NCBI GenBank assembly: GCA_016742275.1
Contig: JACVCD010000023.1
Span: forward strand, 1 to 64,000
Direction of reading: 5' to 3'
Length of the DNA: 64,000 nt
From: Gemmatimonadaceae bacterium
Lineage (GTDB): Bacteria; Gemmatimonadota; Gemmatimonadetes; Gemmatimonadales; Gemmatimonadaceae
The notes beneath the pieces were generated by a model that searched no databases, had not been told where the DNA came from, and worked only from the letters and a program-made list of their open reading frames with translations. Each line of letters begins with the position of its first letter. Positions within the stretch are counted from its first letter, which is position 1. Shown here in pieces: positions 18,897 through 33,073 of the stretch. The position numbers and the translations under genes are program-made.

Positions 18897-19376
<480 letters not shown>

Positions 19377-24622: not shown

Positions 24623-26119
24623 TCAGCGATTGATGGCGTCGAATTCGTGCTCGTAGTAACGCACGAGAATCTGATCATTCAGTCGATTGGGCTCAGCGGG
24701 CACTCGCTGCATATCGGCCGGGAAGTCGAATAGCGGTGGCACCGTAGCCACCGTGAGGTACCGGAGCCCCGGCGGCAATGAGCCAGGCGGCGCATAGCTC
24801 GACAGGCCAGCAATCACGAAGCCCCACTCGCCAAAACTTGGCACATACACATGGTACGGCCATGTGCGAAGCCCAGCGCCTTCGAGCGTGGATACGATGC
24901 TCCAGAACGATTGCCGCGCAAACATCGGCGAGGTGCTCTGCACCGCGAGAAACCCACCTGGCGCGAGATGACGCTTGACCAGTCGATAGAACGCACTCGT
25001 GTACAGCTTGCCAACGTGGTAGTTCGACGGGTCGGGAAAGTCGATCACGATGAAGTCGAACTGCGCCGGACTCTGATCGAGCCAGGTGAACGCATCCGCA
25101 TTCACCACCAGCACGCGCGGATCCTTGAACGCACCACTGTTCATCGCAACCAATCGCGGATGCGTCGTGAACAGTTGGGTCATGCCTTCATCGAGATCGA
25201 CCAGCGTCACGCGCTTTACATCGGGATACTTGAGGATCTCCCGCACCGCGAGTCCGTCGCCACCACCAAGCACCAATACCCGCGCACGGGACGGCACGGC
25301 GGCAAGACCGGGATGAACAAGACCCTCGTGGTAGCGATACTCATCGCGCGACGCGAACTGCAGATGGCCGTTGAGATAGAGACGCAGATCGTCCTTCCAG
25401 CTGGTCAGCACGATGCGCTGATACCGCGTGTCCTTGGACAGGATGATGGGATCGGCATACATCCCTTCTTCCGCAAGGGTGGTGACCTGCTGCCCCTTCC
25501 AAAGGCCAGCACCAAGCACCGCCAACGCCAACAAGCCGACCAGCTGCAACCCGCGCCGGCTTGGCAGCTCATTCCGAAACAGGTGTGTGCTCCAGAGACC
25601 GACCAGCACATTGATCACGCCGAACAGCAACGCCGACCGAACCAATCCGAGACGTGGTACCAGCAGCAGCGGGAAGAGCAATGACGCAAACAGCGCACCG
25701 ATGTAGTCGAACGTCAGCACATTGGCCACGACGTCCTTGAAGCTGAATCGGTCGCGCAGAATGCGCATAAGCAGCGGGATCTCGAGACCGACCAGTGTGC
25801 CGATCAGCAGTACGAGACCGTACAGAACGAGACGGAACGCTTCGGTATACGCGAACGCCAGAAAGAGCAGCAGTGACGACAATCCGCCTACCACTCCGAC
25901 CAGCATCTCGATCTGCACAAAGCGTGTAATTACGCCGCGCACAATGAATCGGGACAGCCAACTCCCGATGCCCATGGCAAAGAGATAGGTCCCGATGATG
26001 GTACTGAACTGGGTAACGCTGTCACCCAGCAGATACGACGCCAGCGCTCCCGCCACGAGCTCGTAAATGAGCCCGCACGCTGCGATGAGACAGACCGACA
26101 GGAACAGCGCTAACGCCAC
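24623..26119 (-). CDS. Membrane-bound spermidine synthase-like aminopropyltransferase
   Basis: Predicted 498-residue fusion. Residues about 1-210 carry around seven membrane spans. The C-terminal half is a class I methyltransferase-fold polyamine aminopropyltransferase. It shows the family motif VLGGGDGLAVREILK, an acidic ribose-binding DLDEG, NADAFTWL, and the catalytic-loop equivalent IVIDFPDPSNYHVGKLY. The GTG at 26119 is the first possible start after an in-frame stop. It sits 15 bases after the DUF350 gene. The membrane half implies an acceptor at or in the membrane. The substrate could be a classical diamine or something else. No ornithine, arginine or lysine decarboxylase is nearby. 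Confidence 0.88.
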   Translation of the reverse strand: MALALFLSVCLIAACGLIYELVAGALASYLLGDSVTQFSTIIGTYLFAMGIGSWLSRFIVRGVITRFVQIEMLVGVVGGLSSLLLFLAFAYTEAFRLVLYGLVLLIGTLVGLEIPLLMRILRDRFSFKDVVANVLTFDYIGALFASLLFPLLLVPRLGLVRSALLFGVINVLVGLWSTHLFRNELPSRRGLQLVGLLALAVLGAGLWKGQQVTTLAEEGMYADPIILSKDTRYQRIVLTSWKDDLRLYLNGHLQFASRDEYRYHEGLVHPGLAAVPSRARVLVLGGGDGLAVREILKYPDVKRVTLVDLDEGMTQLFTTHPRLVAMNSGAFKDPRVLVVNADAFTWLDQSPAQFDFIVIDFPDPSNYHVGKLYTSAFYRLVKRHLAPGGFLAVQSTSPMFARQSFWSIVSTLEGAGLRTWPYHVYVPSFGEWGFVIAGLSSYAPPGSLPPGLRYLTVATVPPLFDFPADMQRVPAEPNRLNDQILVRYYEHEFDAINR

Positions 26120-26547: not shown

Positions 26548-27867
26548 CTATTCGTCCTCCTCGTCGTCGCTGCTGCTCGACGGCGCATGATCACTTTCGG
26601 CCCAACGACGACCTTCGAAACTGGCCGATGGGAAGACCGCGATCACGGCCGGAACCACGAGTGCCAGGAAGGCGAGACCATAGAAGCCGTAGTGCGGCGC
26701 ATCGCGACGCACCTTTAGTGTGTAGCTGGCTACCGGATTGCCTGGCTCGCCACCTTCCTGCTGCACACGCAGGAAGTAGCGCCCCGCCGGCACACTGGCA
26801 ATTCGCACGGTTTCGCTCTGGCTTCCTTCCGTCCACCGACCGTCACTATCGGTTCCGGTGTAGTAGCTCAACTGCCGCGTCACCTCACGCACATCACCGG
26901 TACTTTCGTTGATGAGCGAGATCGTGAAGAAGATCCAGTCGTTCTGAAATGGCGCCTCGATATCGATGGCGATGCTTGAAGAGCGCCCGTCGAGGTCAAA
27001 CGCCGGCGTCACGAATGCGGCTTCATCGCCAGCCATGCGATGGAAGCTGTACTGCTGTGTGAATACCGTGCGATTGCTGGCCAGCGCCACATTGAGCAGC
27101 AACATCATGAACAGCGCCAGCACGGCGAGGCCCATGCGCGAGAACACGCGCCCAGCCAGCTTGTCGTGCGGGTTTGGCTGATTGGCAAACACGCCAACCG
27201 GATCGATGAGCCCCTTTTCGAGGGAAAACATCTTCCGGATGACGTCGGGCGGCGTGTACGTGCCAAGCGACCAGGTGACTTCGTTGTCGGATGCTTCGGC
27301 GCTCAGCAAATACGGCGGCGCCACGAAATCGCGACTGATGATGCTGTCGCCGACACGCAGCTCCCACGGGAACTCACCGAGAGCTGCCGTAGTACGCGCC
27401 ACCGCCGTCTGAAAATGTTTGAAGGTGCGTCCTTCGAGTTCGACCGTCGGGCGCTCACCATCTCGCTCCTTCTCGGGGCGACGACGCAGCTTCTCGATCA
27501 CGTTCCAGTGCCCCTCGTATTCCGAGAGATACAGGAACCCACGATACGGATTGAAGCAGACATACTCAGTCCACGAGTAGTCCACACCTTCCACCGTGAT
27601 GGTGACCACCTGACAGCCGATGGCCTCCCACTGCGCGCCCTTCCACGTACCACGAGTTCCAAGCGGAATGCGCGGCACGAGCTGCACGCGCTCCCCATAC
27701 TGCAACACTTGCAGGTTCGCGTCAGTAGCGTCCAACTGCGCGCCACACGCCGCGCACACCACCGTGACCGCCCACCCCTGCGCGTGCAACTCGATTCCCG
27801 CGCCACAACTGGCGCAGGAAAGCGAAGAAACGCGCGGAACCGTCTGCGTAGCAACGGGCGTCACCAT
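26548..27867 (-). CDS. DUF4178 protein with N-terminal zinc ribbon and two C-terminal spans
   Basis: Predicted 439-residue protein. The N-terminus holds a zinc ribbon, CASCG...CAACG (about 18-42). Residues about 50-240 are the DUF4178 beta-rich domain, with RGTWKGAQWEAIGCQ and a YSWTEYVCFNPYRGFLYLSE segment typical of the family. A membrane span (about 248-266), an extracytoplasmic jelly-roll-like domain with DIEAPFQNDWIFFTISL, and a second span (about 405-425) follow. It ends with an acidic tail. It overlaps the upstream DUF4178 gene by seven bases; ATG 27867 and GTG 27864 are both possible starts. The domain is of unknown function; context suggests a membrane adaptor. Confidence 0.8.
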   Translation of the reverse strand: MVTPVATQTVPRVSSLSCASCGAGIELHAQGWAVTVVCAACGAQLDATDANLQVLQYGERVQLVPRIPLGTRGTWKGAQWEAIGCQVVTITVEGVDYSWTEYVCFNPYRGFLYLSEYEGHWNVIEKLRRRPEKERDGERPTVELEGRTFKHFQTAVARTTAALGEFPWELRVGDSIISRDFVAPPYLLSAEASDNEVTWSLGTYTPPDVIRKMFSLEKGLIDPVGVFANQPNPHDKLAGRVFSRMGLAVLALFMMLLLNVALASNRTVFTQQYSFHRMAGDEAAFVTPAFDLDGRSSSIAIDIEAPFQNDWIFFTISLINESTGDVREVTRQLSYYTGTDSDGRWTEGSQSETVRIASVPAGRYFLRVQQEGGEPGNPVASYTLKVRRDAPHYGFYGLAFLALVVPAVIAVFPSASFEGRRWAESDHAPSSSSDDEEDE

Positions 27868-28505
27868 CCCTCGAACTCCCGGAGATTGCGCAGCGCCAGT
27901 TGATCGAACGAGAGATACTCGCCGAGGTAGAGCTTGGCCGGATACTCGCTGCCATCTACCGTACCGAACCGACCTTCGGGATTCATCAGATCGACAAAAC
28001 GGCAGCGATGCCGACCCGTACTGGTAAACGGCAGTTCGCCCTCCGTGCCGATGTACTCGGCCTCCGTGATGCTGGCCACTTCGTACGGTACGTCTTCAAG
28101 GAAGTACAACGTACCCACGTGCAGTTCGTCGACGGGCGGAAGTACACCACGTGGATCTGCTTCCATGGTCATGGCGTACTCAAGCTGCGCATCAGACAAC
28201 CACGCGCTGTTGCCGTTGTTGAGCAGACAATGCCACTCGTTCCAACGACCACGCGCCCACTGATACGTGAGACGTCCCACCACCACGAAACTGAATTCGC
28301 GCCAACGTCCTTCGGTGCCCAGTTGAATGGGTGATCCGGTGACGGGGAAATCTGCCTGCTGTCCAACGCGCGCGAGATCGAGATCGCGGCGCACGAGCAC
28401 CGAGCGGCAATACGCGCAGGTGGTCTGCACAGCATGCGCCCATCGGAAGTGCACCGGCGCGCCACAATTGGGGCACGCCGCGCCATGCGGAGCGGGGACC
28501 GTCAC
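27861..28505 (-). CDS. DUF4178 protein with N-terminal zinc ribbon, soluble
   Basis: Predicted 214-residue protein. The start is the GTG at 28505, whose G-T-G-A overlaps the speD stop, giving MTVPAPHGAACPNCGAPVHF at the N-terminus. A zinc ribbon CPNC...CAYC spans about 11-35. The DUF4178 domain (about 45-205) includes EGRWREFSFVVVGRL, WNEWHCLLNNGNSAWLSD and AEYIGTEGELPF. There is no membrane segment, so it is the soluble partner of the larger DUF4178 protein encoded next. Readings upstream of 28505 belong to speD in another frame. Confidence 0.8.
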   Translation of the reverse strand: MTVPAPHGAACPNCGAPVHFRWAHAVQTTCAYCRSVLVRRDLDLARVGQQADFPVTGSPIQLGTEGRWREFSFVVVGRLTYQWARGRWNEWHCLLNNGNSAWLSDAQLEYAMTMEADPRGVLPPVDELHVGTLYFLEDVPYEVASITEAEYIGTEGELPFTSTGRHRCRFVDLMNPEGRFGTVDGSEYPAKLYLGEYLSFDQLALRNLREFEGW

Positions 28506-28930
28506 GCCTGTCGCGCTCCTGACTGTCCGGCTGAGAGGCTCGCAGCCACAGTCGCATACGCGCGCGTCAATTGGCGCACCTGTACGGACTGCGCGCCGAG
28601 ATGCGTAACCAGGCCTTGAGACCAATTCCACTCCGGTCGCGGCCGGCAGCAGAACAGGTTAAAACACGCCGAGCCGAACTCGGGGAACGTATGCACCGTG
28701 AGATGCGACTCGGCGAGCAGCACCATACCCGTCACACCACCCGGCGACGGGAATTGATGCCACCGCGGCTCACCAACCGGATGCAACGCGAGCGCGTCGA
28801 TGATGTCGGCGAACAGATGCTGCAATGCCGCAGGATCGGCGAGACGCACGGGATCACATCCGTGCGCCTCGACCACCCACTCCTGGCCTTCAGGGAGCGA
28901 CAATTCCGACAGCGACAGAAAGTCGCTCAC
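28502..28930 (-). CDS. speD: S-adenosylmethionine decarboxylase proenzyme-like protein (SpeD)
   Basis: Predicted 142-residue SpeD of the short bacterial class. The self-processing site is in LLAESHLTVHTFPEF: the Glu-Ser bond should break to yield the pyruvoyl group, and the His serves in processing. The downstream ACFNLFCC replaces the usual acidic residue of the A-x-x-D-x-F-x-C motif with Asn. The GTG at 28930 overlaps the SPFH stop in GTGA, which decides the start. The stop again overlaps the next gene by GTGA. The product would be decarboxylated AdoMet, the aminopropyl donor for the spermidine-synthase-like protein three to four genes downstream. Confidence 0.88.
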   Translation of the reverse strand: MSDFLSLSELSLPEGQEWVVEAHGCDPVRLADPAALQHLFADIIDALALHPVGEPRWHQFPSPGGVTGMVLLAESHLTVHTFPEFGSACFNLFCCRPRPEWNWSQGLVTHLGAQSVQVRQLTRAYATVAASLSAGQSGARQA

Positions 28931-29940
28931 CCCTGTGCGGTACCACACGCCGAGCAGAACTTGGCGATGGACGGAAGTTTGGCACCGCAGTTGATGCAGA
29001 ACTTGCTTTCGGCGCTCGGCGAAACCGGCGGTGCCATGCGCTCGGGCGGTACGGCTACACCGGGCGACTGCGGAGCACCTGTCGCACCGGTAAACGCATT
29101 CGCGATCACACCGCCAAGACCAACACCAGCACCCAAACCAGCTGCCAAGCCGGCCATACCACCTTCGTTGGCGGCGGCGATGGGGATGGACTGCGCTGCC
29201 TGATAGGCCGTGTACGTGCGCATGTCGCCGATGATATTCATCGAGATGCGTTCGTCTAGCTTCTTCTGCAGCTCGTCGGGCAGCGACAGGTTTTCGACGG
29301 TGAACGTTTCGAGCTTGAGGCCGAGCTGTTCGAAAGCCGGCTGTACGGCCGTGCCAATCTGAATGGCGAGCTGCGCCTGGTTGGCGGCCATGTCGAGAAA
29401 CGGCACGTTGGCATTGGCAAATGCCGCGGTGAAGCCGCCGATGATGGCGTTGCGAAGCTGCGGTTCGATCTGCGCGACGGTGTACTCGGCATCGGTGGCA
29501 CCCACCGTCTGCTGAAACACCGCCGGATTGGCGACACGGAAGGCAAACATGCCGAACGCGCGCAAACGCACCGCACCGAATTCGCGATCGCGAATGGTGA
29601 TGGGCTGCTGCGTGCCCCAACGCTGTCCGTTCTGAACGCGCGTCGAGAAAAAGTATACGTCGCTCTTGAACGGAGACTCGAACATCTTGTCCCAGTTCAT
29701 GAGGTTGGTCAGCAGCGGCATGTTCTGCGTGACCAGGGTGTGCAGTCCCGGGCCAAACGCGTCTGCCGCGCGCCCTTCATTCACGAACAGCGCCAACTGC
29801 GAATCGCGCACGGTCAGCTGCGCGCCGCTCTGGATTTCCATGTCCCGCATGGGGAAGCGGTGCATGAGAACACCAGGGCCGGATTCCGTCCACTGGATGA
29901 CATCGATGAACTGCTTGCGCAGGAAATCGCCCAACGCCAT
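28927..29940 (-). CDS. SPFH-domain protein with C-terminal zinc ribbon (YdjI type), first gene of the operon
   Basis: Predicted 337-residue protein. The N-terminal SPFH core (about 5-225) opens with FLRKQFIDVIQWTESGPGVL, includes GPGLHTLVTQNMPLLTNL, and has the helical AQIEPQLRNAIIGGF arm. A Gly/Ala-rich segment (about 255-285) and a Pro-rich linker lead to a terminal zinc ribbon, FCINCG...FCSACG. It has no N-terminal membrane anchor. The layout matches Bacillus YdjI, an SPFH protein that with membrane partners recruits a PspA homologue to stressed membranes. The ATG at 29940 has GGAG eight bases upstream. It heads an operon whose next four junctions are all overlaps, so it is likely the scaffold of the module. 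Confidence 0.88.
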   Translation of the reverse strand: MALGDFLRKQFIDVIQWTESGPGVLMHRFPMRDMEIQSGAQLTVRDSQLALFVNEGRAADAFGPGLHTLVTQNMPLLTNLMNWDKMFESPFKSDVYFFSTRVQNGQRWGTQQPITIRDREFGAVRLRAFGMFAFRVANPAVFQQTVGATDAEYTVAQIEPQLRNAIIGGFTAAFANANVPFLDMAANQAQLAIQIGTAVQPAFEQLGLKLETFTVENLSLPDELQKKLDERISMNIIGDMRTYTAYQAAQSIPIAAANEGGMAGLAAGLGAGVGLGGVIANAFTGATGAPQSPGVAVPPERMAPPVSPSAESKFCINCGAKLPSIAKFCSACGTAQG

Positions 29941-30042
29941 GTCGCGCTCCGAGTACGATTGCCGAGTACGATTGTTTGAAGAAGCGTCCGAGATGAACGC
30001 CGGTGTAGCTATCCTACGATAGCGCAGGTTGGCCTGTTTCGC
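29941..30042 (-). promoter_or_regulatory. Promoter/operator region of the polyamine/SPFH operon with tandem and inverted repeats
   Basis: Immediately before the SPFH start a 13-base sequence is duplicated head to tail without change (29949-29961 and 29962-29974, CCGAGTACGATTG on the plus strand). About 35 bases further upstream lies GCTATC-CTAC-GATAGC (30008-30023), a 6+6 base inverted repeat. Both look like protein-binding sites. No -35/-10 assignment is made. Confidence 0.5.
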
Positions 30043-31560
30043 CTACGACCGAGAAGCCAATTCCCGCACGGCACTCCGGTGAGCGTCCTGGCACGGTGAT
30101 GCGCCACTGGAGCGTACCTTGGGCTGGAATGCGACCACCGGGCGTTGGTGCGCGACTTGCTTGAAGGCGCTGTCGGTTGCAAGCGCCGCGATCAGCCGTT
30201 CGCGCAGGCGCGCATCGAGCAAAGTGGCGTCAAAACGCCCCAACAGACGATGCGTTTCGATTGCATCGGGCTGGCCATAGATGCCCGCCACCTGTAAAAA
30301 GTAGGACAGGGGCAGCGTTTCCACCCGCACACCATGCGCCACCTTTCCCTTGAGATCGGGGAAGAACCAGATCAGCCGTTCAGCCTGCTGTTCGTCGACG
30401 AACAGACAGGCATCGGGTCTGTCACGTGCAATGCGCTCAATCGCGGCTTCAGGTGAATCAACGTCCGGCGCACGCATCGTCGGCCCGAGTCGCCACGGGA
30501 CACCCGCAATCAACCACAGCAACGCCAGCGCACTCACCAAACGAACTGGCAACACCGGCACCTCGCGAAAGGTGAAGGTCCAGCGCGCCGGTACGGTCTG
30601 CTCGAGCAGCGGCGGGAGCAGGACCAGAGCAGTCAGCGCCAACGGTGTGGCATGTCGGACCGATGTCACAGTCATCAGTAGCATGCCTCCGAGCACCACA
30701 CGTGCGTACCACTGTCCTCGCGCACGCAACACAACAACGGCAATCAACACAACCAGCGCGACGATCCCGATTTCCGGTGCCGCCCAAAGCGGGAACCATT
30801 CAGAAATCATGCTGCGGATGAGAGGGCTGCCTGCCGTTTCGCGGTAGTAGTGCAGCACGCCGAGCCCGTATGGTGTGCACACGACAGACAGAGCAGTGGC
30901 GGCAGTCAGCACACCAAATCGCGACGCATCGGACTTCCACTCTTCTCTCGAACCCCACAGACCTTCGGCAACGACCACCACGAAGGCTGCACCAACAATG
31001 AGCGGCGCCAGCAGCACAGAGCCATGCAGATTGGCCCACAACAGGCTGACGGGCACCAGGGACCAGAGCGCGCGCGAGGGGCGTAGCAGATTTCGCTGCA
31101 CGACCCACACCGTCCACACGAGCAGGGGATACACCAGCGTCTGCGCACGCAGCACCAGCTGGGAGCCGATGGCCATGAGCACGAGCGCCACAGTGAGCAG
31201 CACGACTCCCGGACGGATTGGTTCGTCGGTGCGCGTGCAATGCGCCAATGCCACAGTAATCAGCGTAAAGGCAATCAGCAGCAACCCGAATGCCGGAACG
31301 GCTGCAACTCCCAGCACTCGCGCCAGCCCATAAAACACGGCATGCGCGAGCCATTGCACATCCACTACCGGCAATCCCATCCACACGGCGCTAAGCGTGT
31401 CCACGCGCATGATGCCATGGGTGATGATCTCGCGACCGAGTGTGAGGTTGTACCAGGTATCGCCCCACACGAACAGGTCCGTACGCAAGCCCACAACGAG
31501 CAACACCACCATCGGGATCAACCAGATGGTGGTGGCGTCGGGATTTGAACGTTCGGGCAC
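30043..31560 (-). CDS. Polytopic GT-C-like membrane protein, paralogue of the one at 4273-5907
   Basis: Predicted 505-residue membrane protein starting at the GTG at 31560, since longer readings run into the M24 gene ending at 31590. The first span (about 12-28) is followed by GDTWYNLTLGREIITHG and, about 20 residues later, VDVQWLAHAVFYGLARVLG. This is the same loop as the GT-C-like protein near the left end, with Asp, Leu-x-x-G and Trp-Leu conserved. About nine further spans precede a soluble C-terminal domain of about 140 residues. Donor and acceptor are unknown. It is followed by the promoter region of the SPFH operon on the same strand. Confidence 0.75.
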   Translation of the reverse strand: MPERSNPDATTIWLIPMVVLLVVGLRTDLFVWGDTWYNLTLGREIITHGIMRVDTLSAVWMGLPVVDVQWLAHAVFYGLARVLGVAAVPAFGLLLIAFTLITVALAHCTRTDEPIRPGVVLLTVALVLMAIGSQLVLRAQTLVYPLLVWTVWVVQRNLLRPSRALWSLVPVSLLWANLHGSVLLAPLIVGAAFVVVVAEGLWGSREEWKSDASRFGVLTAATALSVVCTPYGLGVLHYYRETAGSPLIRSMISEWFPLWAAPEIGIVALVVLIAVVVLRARGQWYARVVLGGMLLMTVTSVRHATPLALTALVLLPPLLEQTVPARWTFTFREVPVLPVRLVSALALLWLIAGVPWRLGPTMRAPDVDSPEAAIERIARDRPDACLFVDEQQAERLIWFFPDLKGKVAHGVRVETLPLSYFLQVAGIYGQPDAIETHRLLGRFDATLLDARLRERLIAALATDSAFKQVAHQRPVVAFQPKVRSSGASPCQDAHRSAVRELASRS

Positions 31561-31589: not shown

Positions 31590-33011
31590 TTACTTCACGA
31601 GGTGAAACGTGGTCTGACGGCCAAACGCCCAGCGCACCTTGCCGTTGGCGTCGATGATCACGTCTTCTTCCTGCGCTGACCGCACGCGCTGGTTGTTCCA
31701 CTCCGGCACGGGCGCCGTGGCCTGCAGTTCGATGGAGTACCACATGCCCGGAATGATCTTGTGGTCTCCGCGGCCCGGCACGCCGTCCTGGTAATCCCAG
31801 AGACCAATCAACGAGCCGGCACCATGACCATGGAGACCAATCGGGTGCGAATACAGCGTGCCATCGATCTTCTCGTCGCGCATGCGCTTGAGTGACGCGG
31901 CCAACACTTCATTGCCCGTACGACCAGGCTTGAGCTCTTCGATGGTGATGTCCTGCAGGCGATTGCTGGCCTTGAGCGCCGCCTTGAGGCCGGCCGGCAC
32001 ATCGGTCTCACCATCACGCAGGACATAACCCATGTGCTGCGTGTCGGTGTTCAGTCCAAGTGCAACAATGCCGAAGTCGCAATGCAGCACGTCACCCTTG
32101 AGAATGGTCGGATTCACACCCACGAGCTCCGGATTGCCGAACTGTCGCTGCACTTCCACGCTCGGCTGGAACCACGTCCCAAGTCCGAGATCGTTCACAC
32201 GCTGACGCATCCACCACAGCACGTCGTCGGCCTTGGTGACACCGGGCTTGATGACCTTATTGGAGAACGCTTCTTCGATGATGCCCCACGCCACGCGATT
32301 GAGCTCGCGGAACGCCGCTTCTTCCTCGGGCTGACGGGCAGCGATGATGTCGACGGCCATGGCTTCGGCATTGACCACGCGCGACGTCCACTGCGGACCA
32401 AGGGCCTGCAGCATGCCTTCCTTTTCGCCGCTCGAGAGACCGTCGGAGAACGCAAACACACGCGACGTGTTGATGGCGATCTTCTTCGGCTGACGTTCCT
32501 CGATGACCTGCTTGAGCACGCTCCACTGCTCGTCGCCCCAGAGCTCGGCCTGTCGCTCATTGCCACGACTGCCGGCAGCGGGCGCAGGCACGGGCTTCAT
32601 GCTGCGTACGGCCTTGTACACGTTTCCCTGCGACGTGCCACCCAGGGCAATGCGCTCCACGCCCTGCGCACCCTTGTCGAAGAACACGTAGATGGTGCGC
32701 CGACGCGCAGCAAACGTGGTTGGCGACGTAATGGCGCGGAACATCGGGTCTTCGTTGTACTCGCGCATCGGCACCACCCACATGTCCACACCTTCGCGTC
32801 GCATCAGCGCCGGCAGGGTGCGCTCCATGCGCAGCTCGAGCCACTTCTGCATCTGCTCGGCCTGATCCCGCAGCAGCCCGAAGGGGCGCAGCGTGTCGGC
32901 AGCGGACGATCCGCTGTGTCTCGCCCCCTGGGTCTTGGGCGACGTGACCGGTTGCGCAGAGAGAACAGAGGGGACGGCGAGGGCGAGAGCGATGCGGGAA
33001 AGACGGGGCAT
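31590..33011 (-). CDS. Secreted M24 family metallopeptidase (Xaa-Pro aminopeptidase-like)
   Basis: Predicted 473-residue protein with a signal peptide (MPRLSRIALALAVPSVLSAQ). Residues about 45-260 form the creatinase/prolidase-like N-domain, and the rest is the pita-bread metallopeptidase fold. The five metal ligands are visible: Asp in HCDFGIV, Asp in LNTDTQHMG, His in SHPIGLHGHG, Glu in SIELQATAPVP and Glu in AQEEDVI. It should remove N-terminal residues ahead of Pro in the periplasm. The ATG at 33011 lies inside the last unit of a 14-base tandem repeat that fills its leader. The gene ends 30 bases before the GT-C-like gene. Confidence 0.88.
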   Translation of the reverse strand: MPRLSRIALALAVPSVLSAQPVTSPKTQGARHSGSSAADTLRPFGLLRDQAEQMQKWLELRMERTLPALMRREGVDMWVVPMREYNEDPMFRAITSPTTFAARRRTIYVFFDKGAQGVERIALGGTSQGNVYKAVRSMKPVPAPAAGSRGNERQAELWGDEQWSVLKQVIEERQPKKIAINTSRVFAFSDGLSSGEKEGMLQALGPQWTSRVVNAEAMAVDIIAARQPEEEAAFRELNRVAWGIIEEAFSNKVIKPGVTKADDVLWWMRQRVNDLGLGTWFQPSVEVQRQFGNPELVGVNPTILKGDVLHCDFGIVALGLNTDTQHMGYVLRDGETDVPAGLKAALKASNRLQDITIEELKPGRTGNEVLAASLKRMRDEKIDGTLYSHPIGLHGHGAGSLIGLWDYQDGVPGRGDHKIIPGMWYSIELQATAPVPEWNNQRVRSAQEEDVIIDANGKVRWAFGRQTTFHLVK

Positions 33012-33017
33012 GGAAAA

Positions 33018-33073
33018 GCGGAAGCGAGGGGGCGGAAGCGAAACGGCGGAAGCGAAACAACGGAAGCCAACGA
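33018..33073. repeat. 14-base tandem repeat (about 4 copies) in the leader of the M24 gene
   Basis: Units start at 33018, 33032, 33046 and 33060 with consensus GCGGAAGCGAAACG. Units 2 and 3 differ at one base, while units 1 and 4 are more diverged. On the transcribed strand this is a pyrimidine-rich leader just upstream of the ATG at 33011. Confidence 0.85.

Follow-up and report, generated by a model that had tools for sequence, protein, structure and literature searches.

According to excerpts of the literature on Bacillus subtilis, promoters recognised by SigW follow the consensus TGAAACN16,17CGTA (PMC2375139), and FloA, FloT as well as the pspA-ydjGHI operon, which includes the SPFH protein YdjI, are described as sigma-W dependent in the consulted part of a further source (PMC8581546). 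Moreover, groups of SPFH, DUF4178 and polyamine genes related to the operon treated here appear in the sections consulted of a PSP survey (PMC11237479). Within a limited body of open-licence literature on Gemmatimonas or Gemmatimonadetes, the sole match (PMC3162934) concerned sigma-54.

The window, i.e. the whole stretch of 64,000 nucleotides analysed here, stems from the draft genome of a Gemmatimonadaceae bacterium (33 contigs, 4.57 Mb) and contains an operon headed by an SPFH gene, which is separated from the next upstream gene by a gap of 102 bases (29941-30042), all on the minus strand (Table 1). The initial annotation, made from the letters of the window, had proposed a regulatory signal at this operon head, composed of a direct repeat and a palindrome, and had called it unexplained as no regulator gene is adjacent. 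A Pfam scan of the seven neighbouring proteins indeed revealed no such gene, nor any match to pspA or CesT/Tir. The N-terminal part of the spermine/spermidine synthase domain protein appears hydrophobic by eye.

Table 1. Features of the SPFH operon and of the gap preceding it (window coordinates)
Feature	Position	Strand	Basis or remark
Spermine/spermidine synthase domain protein	24623..26119	minus	Pfam PF01564, E 6.5e-35
DUF4178 protein no. 2	26548..27867	minus	Pfam PF13785, E 7.1e-22
DUF4178 protein (approximate start)	27861..28631	minus	Pfam PF13785, E 1.8e-16
S-adenosylmethionine decarboxylase-like gene (approximate start)	28502..28930	minus	Pfam PF02675, E 1.7e-25
SPFH/Band 7 protein with a C-terminal zinc ribbon, heading the operon	28927..29940	minus	Pfam PF13421, E 3e-72; PF13240, E 2.3e-07
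CGGAG, likely ribosome binding site, 6 bases before the SPFH ATG	29947..29951	minus	Sequence
13-mer CAATCGTACTCGG, copy 2, adjoining the ribosome site and containing CGTAC	29949..29961	minus	Sequence, Tandem Repeats Finder
13-mer CAATCGTACTCGG, copy 1 (upstream in gene sense)	29962..29974	minus	Sequence, Tandem Repeats Finder
P2, candidate promoter: TCAAAC (29979-29974), 16-base spacer, CGTAC (29957-29953)	29953..29979	minus	Weak by weight matrix
6+6 inverted repeat GCTATC-GTAG-GATAGC	30008..30023	minus	Chance level
P1, candidate promoter: CGAAAC (30041-30036), 17-base spacer, CGTAG (30018-30014)	30014..30041	minus	Inferred ECF-sigma type
Hydrophobic protein, ~505 aa, directly upstream of the gap	30043..31560	minus	Without Pfam match

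The gene of the hydrophobic protein is preceded on the same strand by an M24 peptidase gene, which starts at 33011. The ORF listed for the hydrophobic protein extends from 31743 to 30043, and the GTG at 31560, located after the M24 stop, is likely its start codon; residues 1-61 of the listed ORF yield short matches in relatives because the beginning of that ORF overlaps M24 coding sequence read in another frame. Among 30 genomes of the genus, full-length matches at the same position occur in two (G028 and G029, 36-39% identity). The two nearest relatives, at 94% and 93% protein identity, lack the hydrophobic gene and have the M24 gene about 110 bases before the SPFH gene, as would follow from a loss, a gain or a replacement at a single site; a further relative (G020) features about 1 kb without a match between M24 and SPFH. 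The stretch CGGAGCGCGAC-ATG is the sole clean leader block common to the window and these two nearest relatives, and the best other match of the 102-base gap across the 30 genus genomes reached an E value of 0.018, which is not strong.

For a comparison of SPFH loci, 61 genomes were searched with the SPFH protein, of which 27 matched, the genome of the window included. After removal of G057, which matched over a short zinc-ribbon stretch only, and of short secondary hits in G028 and G008, 25 relatives were retained, 23 from the genus and two from other genera of the same family. Upstream of their SPFH genes, a two-box motif of the form TGACAC(TTT)-N16/17-CGTA(G/C) emerged. Defined as TGACAC or TGAAAC with at most one mismatch, followed by N16/17 and CGTA(G/C) and situated no more than 200 bases away from the SPFH start, it was present in 21/23 genus relatives, a count to be read with the facts that the motif was first spotted by eye in the same sequences, that the one-mismatch rule was set after viewing the window and that the rule admitted only the spacer lengths of 16 and 17 found in these 21. 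The first box is exact in 19 of the 23. The motif is missing before SPFH in the remaining two genus relatives (G021 and G012) and in both relatives from other genera, and one relative (G011) was counted only via the one-mismatch rule, its weight-matrix score being -3.2. With a matrix built from 30 sites and evaluated by leave-one-out, 20 of the 25 relatives score between 9.7 and 34.8 and five below 0.

Genus-wide, the strict pattern TGACACTTN{13,15}CGTAS gave 37 matches, distributed over 22 of the 30 genomes, vs 2 for the reversed pattern. The SPFH gene accounts for 15 of these matches. Among the other 22, 18 were examined, and 13 of these are situated just upstream of a gene encoding 86 amino acids, which was identified from its initial codons in cases of a cut or unlisted ORF. 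In the genome of the window, the copy in question (L178; G000:C15:56770-56796) precedes the 86-aa gene, behind which a Band 7 protein is encoded (PF01145, E 7.5e-26), the CGTAC box of this copy beginning 18 bases before the ATG; in other genomes, the Band 7 gene behind the 86-aa gene was judged by eye where the contig was long enough. In five copies (L172, L173, L175, L178, L197) the distance from the start of the second box to the ATG of the 86-aa gene is 16-19 bases, which implies a very short leader of this second SPFH operon. Further loci, L177 and L199 among them, also carry a SigW-like motif before an 86-aa plus Band 7 operon. In four of the 18 cases (L181, L182, L196, L198) the gene behind the motif encodes a secreted-looking protein or is a fragment, in each case without Pfam match; by eye, similar PRGxFGxNT or PQGDFGRNT-like stretches recur among them, and they might be further members of the regulon. 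The one remaining match stands before an unrelated ORF.

The motif is rare in the genome of the window. The strict form occurs once in the whole genome, and TGACAC, TGACACT or TGACACTT followed by 12-23 bases and CGTA(G/C) gave no match in 366 kb of it; on these two counts, the idea that the relatives' motif is simply a common promoter was rejected. A genus search with CGTC as second box produced mostly chance-like matches and supports no conclusion, its design being poor. The same genome has 33 sigma70-region-2 matches, and no convincing copy of the motif was seen in front of the 30 of these loci that were read, the only sites being weak ones (such as L203, TGATAC-N17-CGTAC, 68 bases before region 2, or L215, TGTCAC-N17-CGTAC, 66 bases before it). 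In the outgroup, with any base allowed after CGTA, a site was present in 4/62 orthologous loci vs 0/62 for the reversed pattern, 58/62 being without one; since loci L002-L017 largely repeat assemblies of the G set, only L018 and the outgroup are new in this comparison. L018 shows TGACAC-N16-CGTAT before its SPFH orthologue, L007 matches only through a one-mismatch CGTAT site, and CGAAAC serves as first box in three of the four outgroup sites, namely in L031 and L032, which are apparently near copies of each other, and in L037. As a side observation, seven relatives with long leaders (L088, L090, L094, L097, L102, L098, L103) share a GC-rich hairpin, CGCGyCCCG...CGGGrCGCG, between motif and SPFH start, which displays a few two-sided changes, had no Rfam match in the six of these loci that were searched and is not seen in the window.

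In the window itself, the corresponding candidate is P1, which begins one base past the upstream gene's stop codon. The first box of P1 deviates from TGAAAC by one mismatch, its spacer measures 17 bases and its second box matches CGTA exactly. The weight matrix assigns it a total of 2.1, composed of a strong -10 box (11.2) and a poor -35 box (-9.1), and 7.6% of 3000 random stretches of 180 bases score as well. One-mismatch sites of any kind were found in 46 of 20,000 random 102-base stretches of the same genome; this relaxed form shows no genome-wide enrichment, the 366-kb sample giving 20 sites vs 30 for the reversed control, and GAMAC-N16/17-CGTAS gave 7 sites, P1 included, vs 3 reversed. 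P1 is therefore a likely promoter by its position and by its counterparts in relatives, its sequence by itself being no proof. Consensus scans of 29900-30150 for a housekeeping sigma-70 promoter found none, so that this candidate was rejected, as was a structured leader RNA on account of a 118-base fold with a z of -0.60 and of the lack of Rfam matches in 29700-30200.

Hence, on balance, we lean towards the view that the SPFH operon has its promoter and 5' leader in 29941-30042, that transcription would most likely proceed from P1 as an ECF-sigma-type promoter of the SigW kind, and that the two repeats are, respectively, a lineage-specific and an incidental addition. P1 would then be a decayed member of the promoter conserved before the SPFH gene across the genus and before the second SPFH operon. 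Judged from the spacing to the -10 box, transcription would start near 30005, which would place the 13-base tandem in the leader, roughly 30-55 bases downstream of the start and without a required function.

As to the tandem, two adjoining copies of CCGAGTACGATTG are present without mismatch, as first reported (Tandem Repeats Finder: 13 x 2.0, 100%), and the gene-proximal copy does overlap the ribosome site, providing the CGG of CGGAG. A perfect tandem with a period of 10-30 arose in 1/5000 dinucleotide shuffles of the gap; the duplication is no chance match. Within 365,838 sampled bases of this genome, 8 perfect tandems of period 10-30 were counted, coding and intergenic sequence being taken together, vs a simulated expectation of 1.0 on average (range 0-5; 10 second-order Markov simulations). 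Perfect tandem duplications of this size thus arise at an appreciable rate in this genome. Short tandem duplications are generated by replication slippage, and the present one resembles such duplications in being perfect, two-copied, confined to one lineage and located outside coding sequence. Slippage in the leader would be the simplest account, and a lineage-specific slippage duplication is the most likely origin of the repeat. Comparable units come and go at the SPFH/M24 locus, given that in L005 a 13-base unit is repeated 4.7 times upstream of the M24 gene, i.e. one gene up from SPFH; the relatives L003 and L004 have no array there. Elsewhere in the window, a 14-base unit in 3.6 copies occupies 33018-33067, just upstream of the M24 start and, by eye, without counterpart in the corresponding sequences of relatives, and GTTGCC occurs about 32 times over at 18960-19152.

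The inverted repeat also exists as described, with arms at 30008-30013 and 30018-30023, a 4-base loop and a distance of 34 bases from the tandem. Its reading as typical of regulator binding is not supported, as 6+6 inverted repeats with loops of 3-8 bases appear in 9.3% of 5000 dinucleotide shuffles of the gap; unrelated ones of that size are found in the corresponding 102 bases of 8/25 relatives. The CGTAG of P1 consists of the final base of one arm plus the loop, and the palindrome is most likely an incidental coincidence around the candidate -10 box. A terminator at this position was rejected, the scan of 29900-30150 having given none.

Absence from close relatives was one of the two points by which the initial annotation would have counted its proposal as refuted, and the repeats did prove absent there: allowing up to 3 mismatches, the tandem of 26 bases occurs in 1/30 genus genomes, namely that of the window, none of the 25 relatives has a perfect tandem of period 8-30 in the 102 bases that precede its SPFH start, and neither the exact 13-mer nor the exact palindrome recurs elsewhere in the genome of the window. 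With both repeats confined to this genome, they are probably not a conserved switch. Of the original proposal, the control region at the operon head probably stands, and the direct repeat and palindrome as regulator sites are not supported, being neither conserved nor recurring. The signal that had seemed unexplained would be better accounted for by an ECF-sigma-type promoter common to two SPFH operons of the genus, whose two-box motif had escaped the initial annotation.

Several other readings were weighed against this one. Transcription might simply run into the operon from the membrane-protein and M24 genes upstream, in which case the gap would be all spacer and no local promoter would matter. 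The genes share one strand across only 102 bases, no terminator-like site was detected in 29900-30150, the SPFH start of G021 lies only 9 bases past the M24 stop and P1 is weak by matrix; on the other hand, conservation of the two-box motif in most genus relatives and its genus-wide excess over the reversed pattern speak against a mere spacer, so that read-through appears unlikely. Paired regulator sites usually follow the helical repeat, to which a 13-base period does not fit. This bears on the view that the direct repeat, the palindrome or both form an operator through which a regulator encoded elsewhere acts on the SPFH operon. The perfect tandem is indeed unexpected by chance, and a repressor could act at the candidate -10 box, on which the palindrome is centred; yet the 13-mer with 0-1 mismatch occupies 6 genomic places, among them the two window copies themselves, vs 2 for the reversed pattern, the palindrome occurs nowhere else in the genome and the tandem is missing in relatives, which renders an operator very improbable. 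An assembly error of the draft genome verges on the negligible: tandems can be misassembled, but 26 bases are below usual read lengths and a 13-base array is also found in another assembly of the genus.

Compatible with the favoured view of P1 is a more specific role of the duplication, namely that it made a second ECF-type promoter, P2, which compensates for the decay of P1. P2 is one mismatch away from TGAAAC-N16-CGTA, exists only with both 13-mer copies and sits 17 bases before the ATG, an arrangement for which the second SPFH operon of the same genome, with CGTAC starting 18 bases before its ATG, offers a parallel. Moreover, two sites coincided in only 1/20,000 random stretches, and that one may be the window itself, which the sample included. 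Nevertheless, the matrix score of P2 is about 0 and falls inside the random range (95th percentile 3.8), its first box has lost the G at position 2 that all training sites, themselves chosen by that box, possess, the transcript start would land in or beside the ribosome site, and the two candidates are not independent, given that ATCGTA is common to both. Compensation through P2 is accordingly regarded as quite unlikely. The bolder version, in which the inherited promoter decayed after the membrane-protein gene came to lie in front and the duplication, by placing CGTAC 16 bases behind TCAAAC, created a new stress promoter that rescues or adds ECF-sigma control of the SPFH operon, is a conjecture with a slim chance of being correct, slightly below that of compensation.

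The repeats themselves are ordinary; it is the comparison that points to a SigW-like promoter common to two SPFH operons of Gemmatimonas-like bacteria. Confirmation would extend to a distant phylum the control of SPFH genes by ECF sigma factors that is known from Bacillus subtilis, and would offer a small, concrete regulon for testing. Compared with the operons in the parts consulted of the PSP survey (PMC11237479), the window shares the combination of Band 7 and C-terminal zinc ribbon, DUF4178 and a synthase domain fused to a membrane part, as well as the AdoMet decarboxylase of related operons, and differs by its two DUF4178 genes, by an AdoMetDC directly after SPFH and by the lack of a pspA or CesT/Tir match among the seven scanned neighbours. 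With respect to SigW promoters, a type used for membrane-stress genes, the difference resides in the first box, which is mostly TGACAC(TT) in the genus and CGAAAC in the window, and in the phylum, the Gemmatimonas-type promoter being recognised here by sequence. The likeness to the consensus excerpted above extends to the two boxes, the equal spacing, the CGTA core and, in the relatives, a first box of TGACAC or TGAAAC (PMC2375139), and, as far as the consulted part of PMC8581546 goes, to the placement of SPFH genes under such promoters, by analogy with which the SPFH operon of the window is probably ECF-sigma controlled like its counterparts in B. subtilis.
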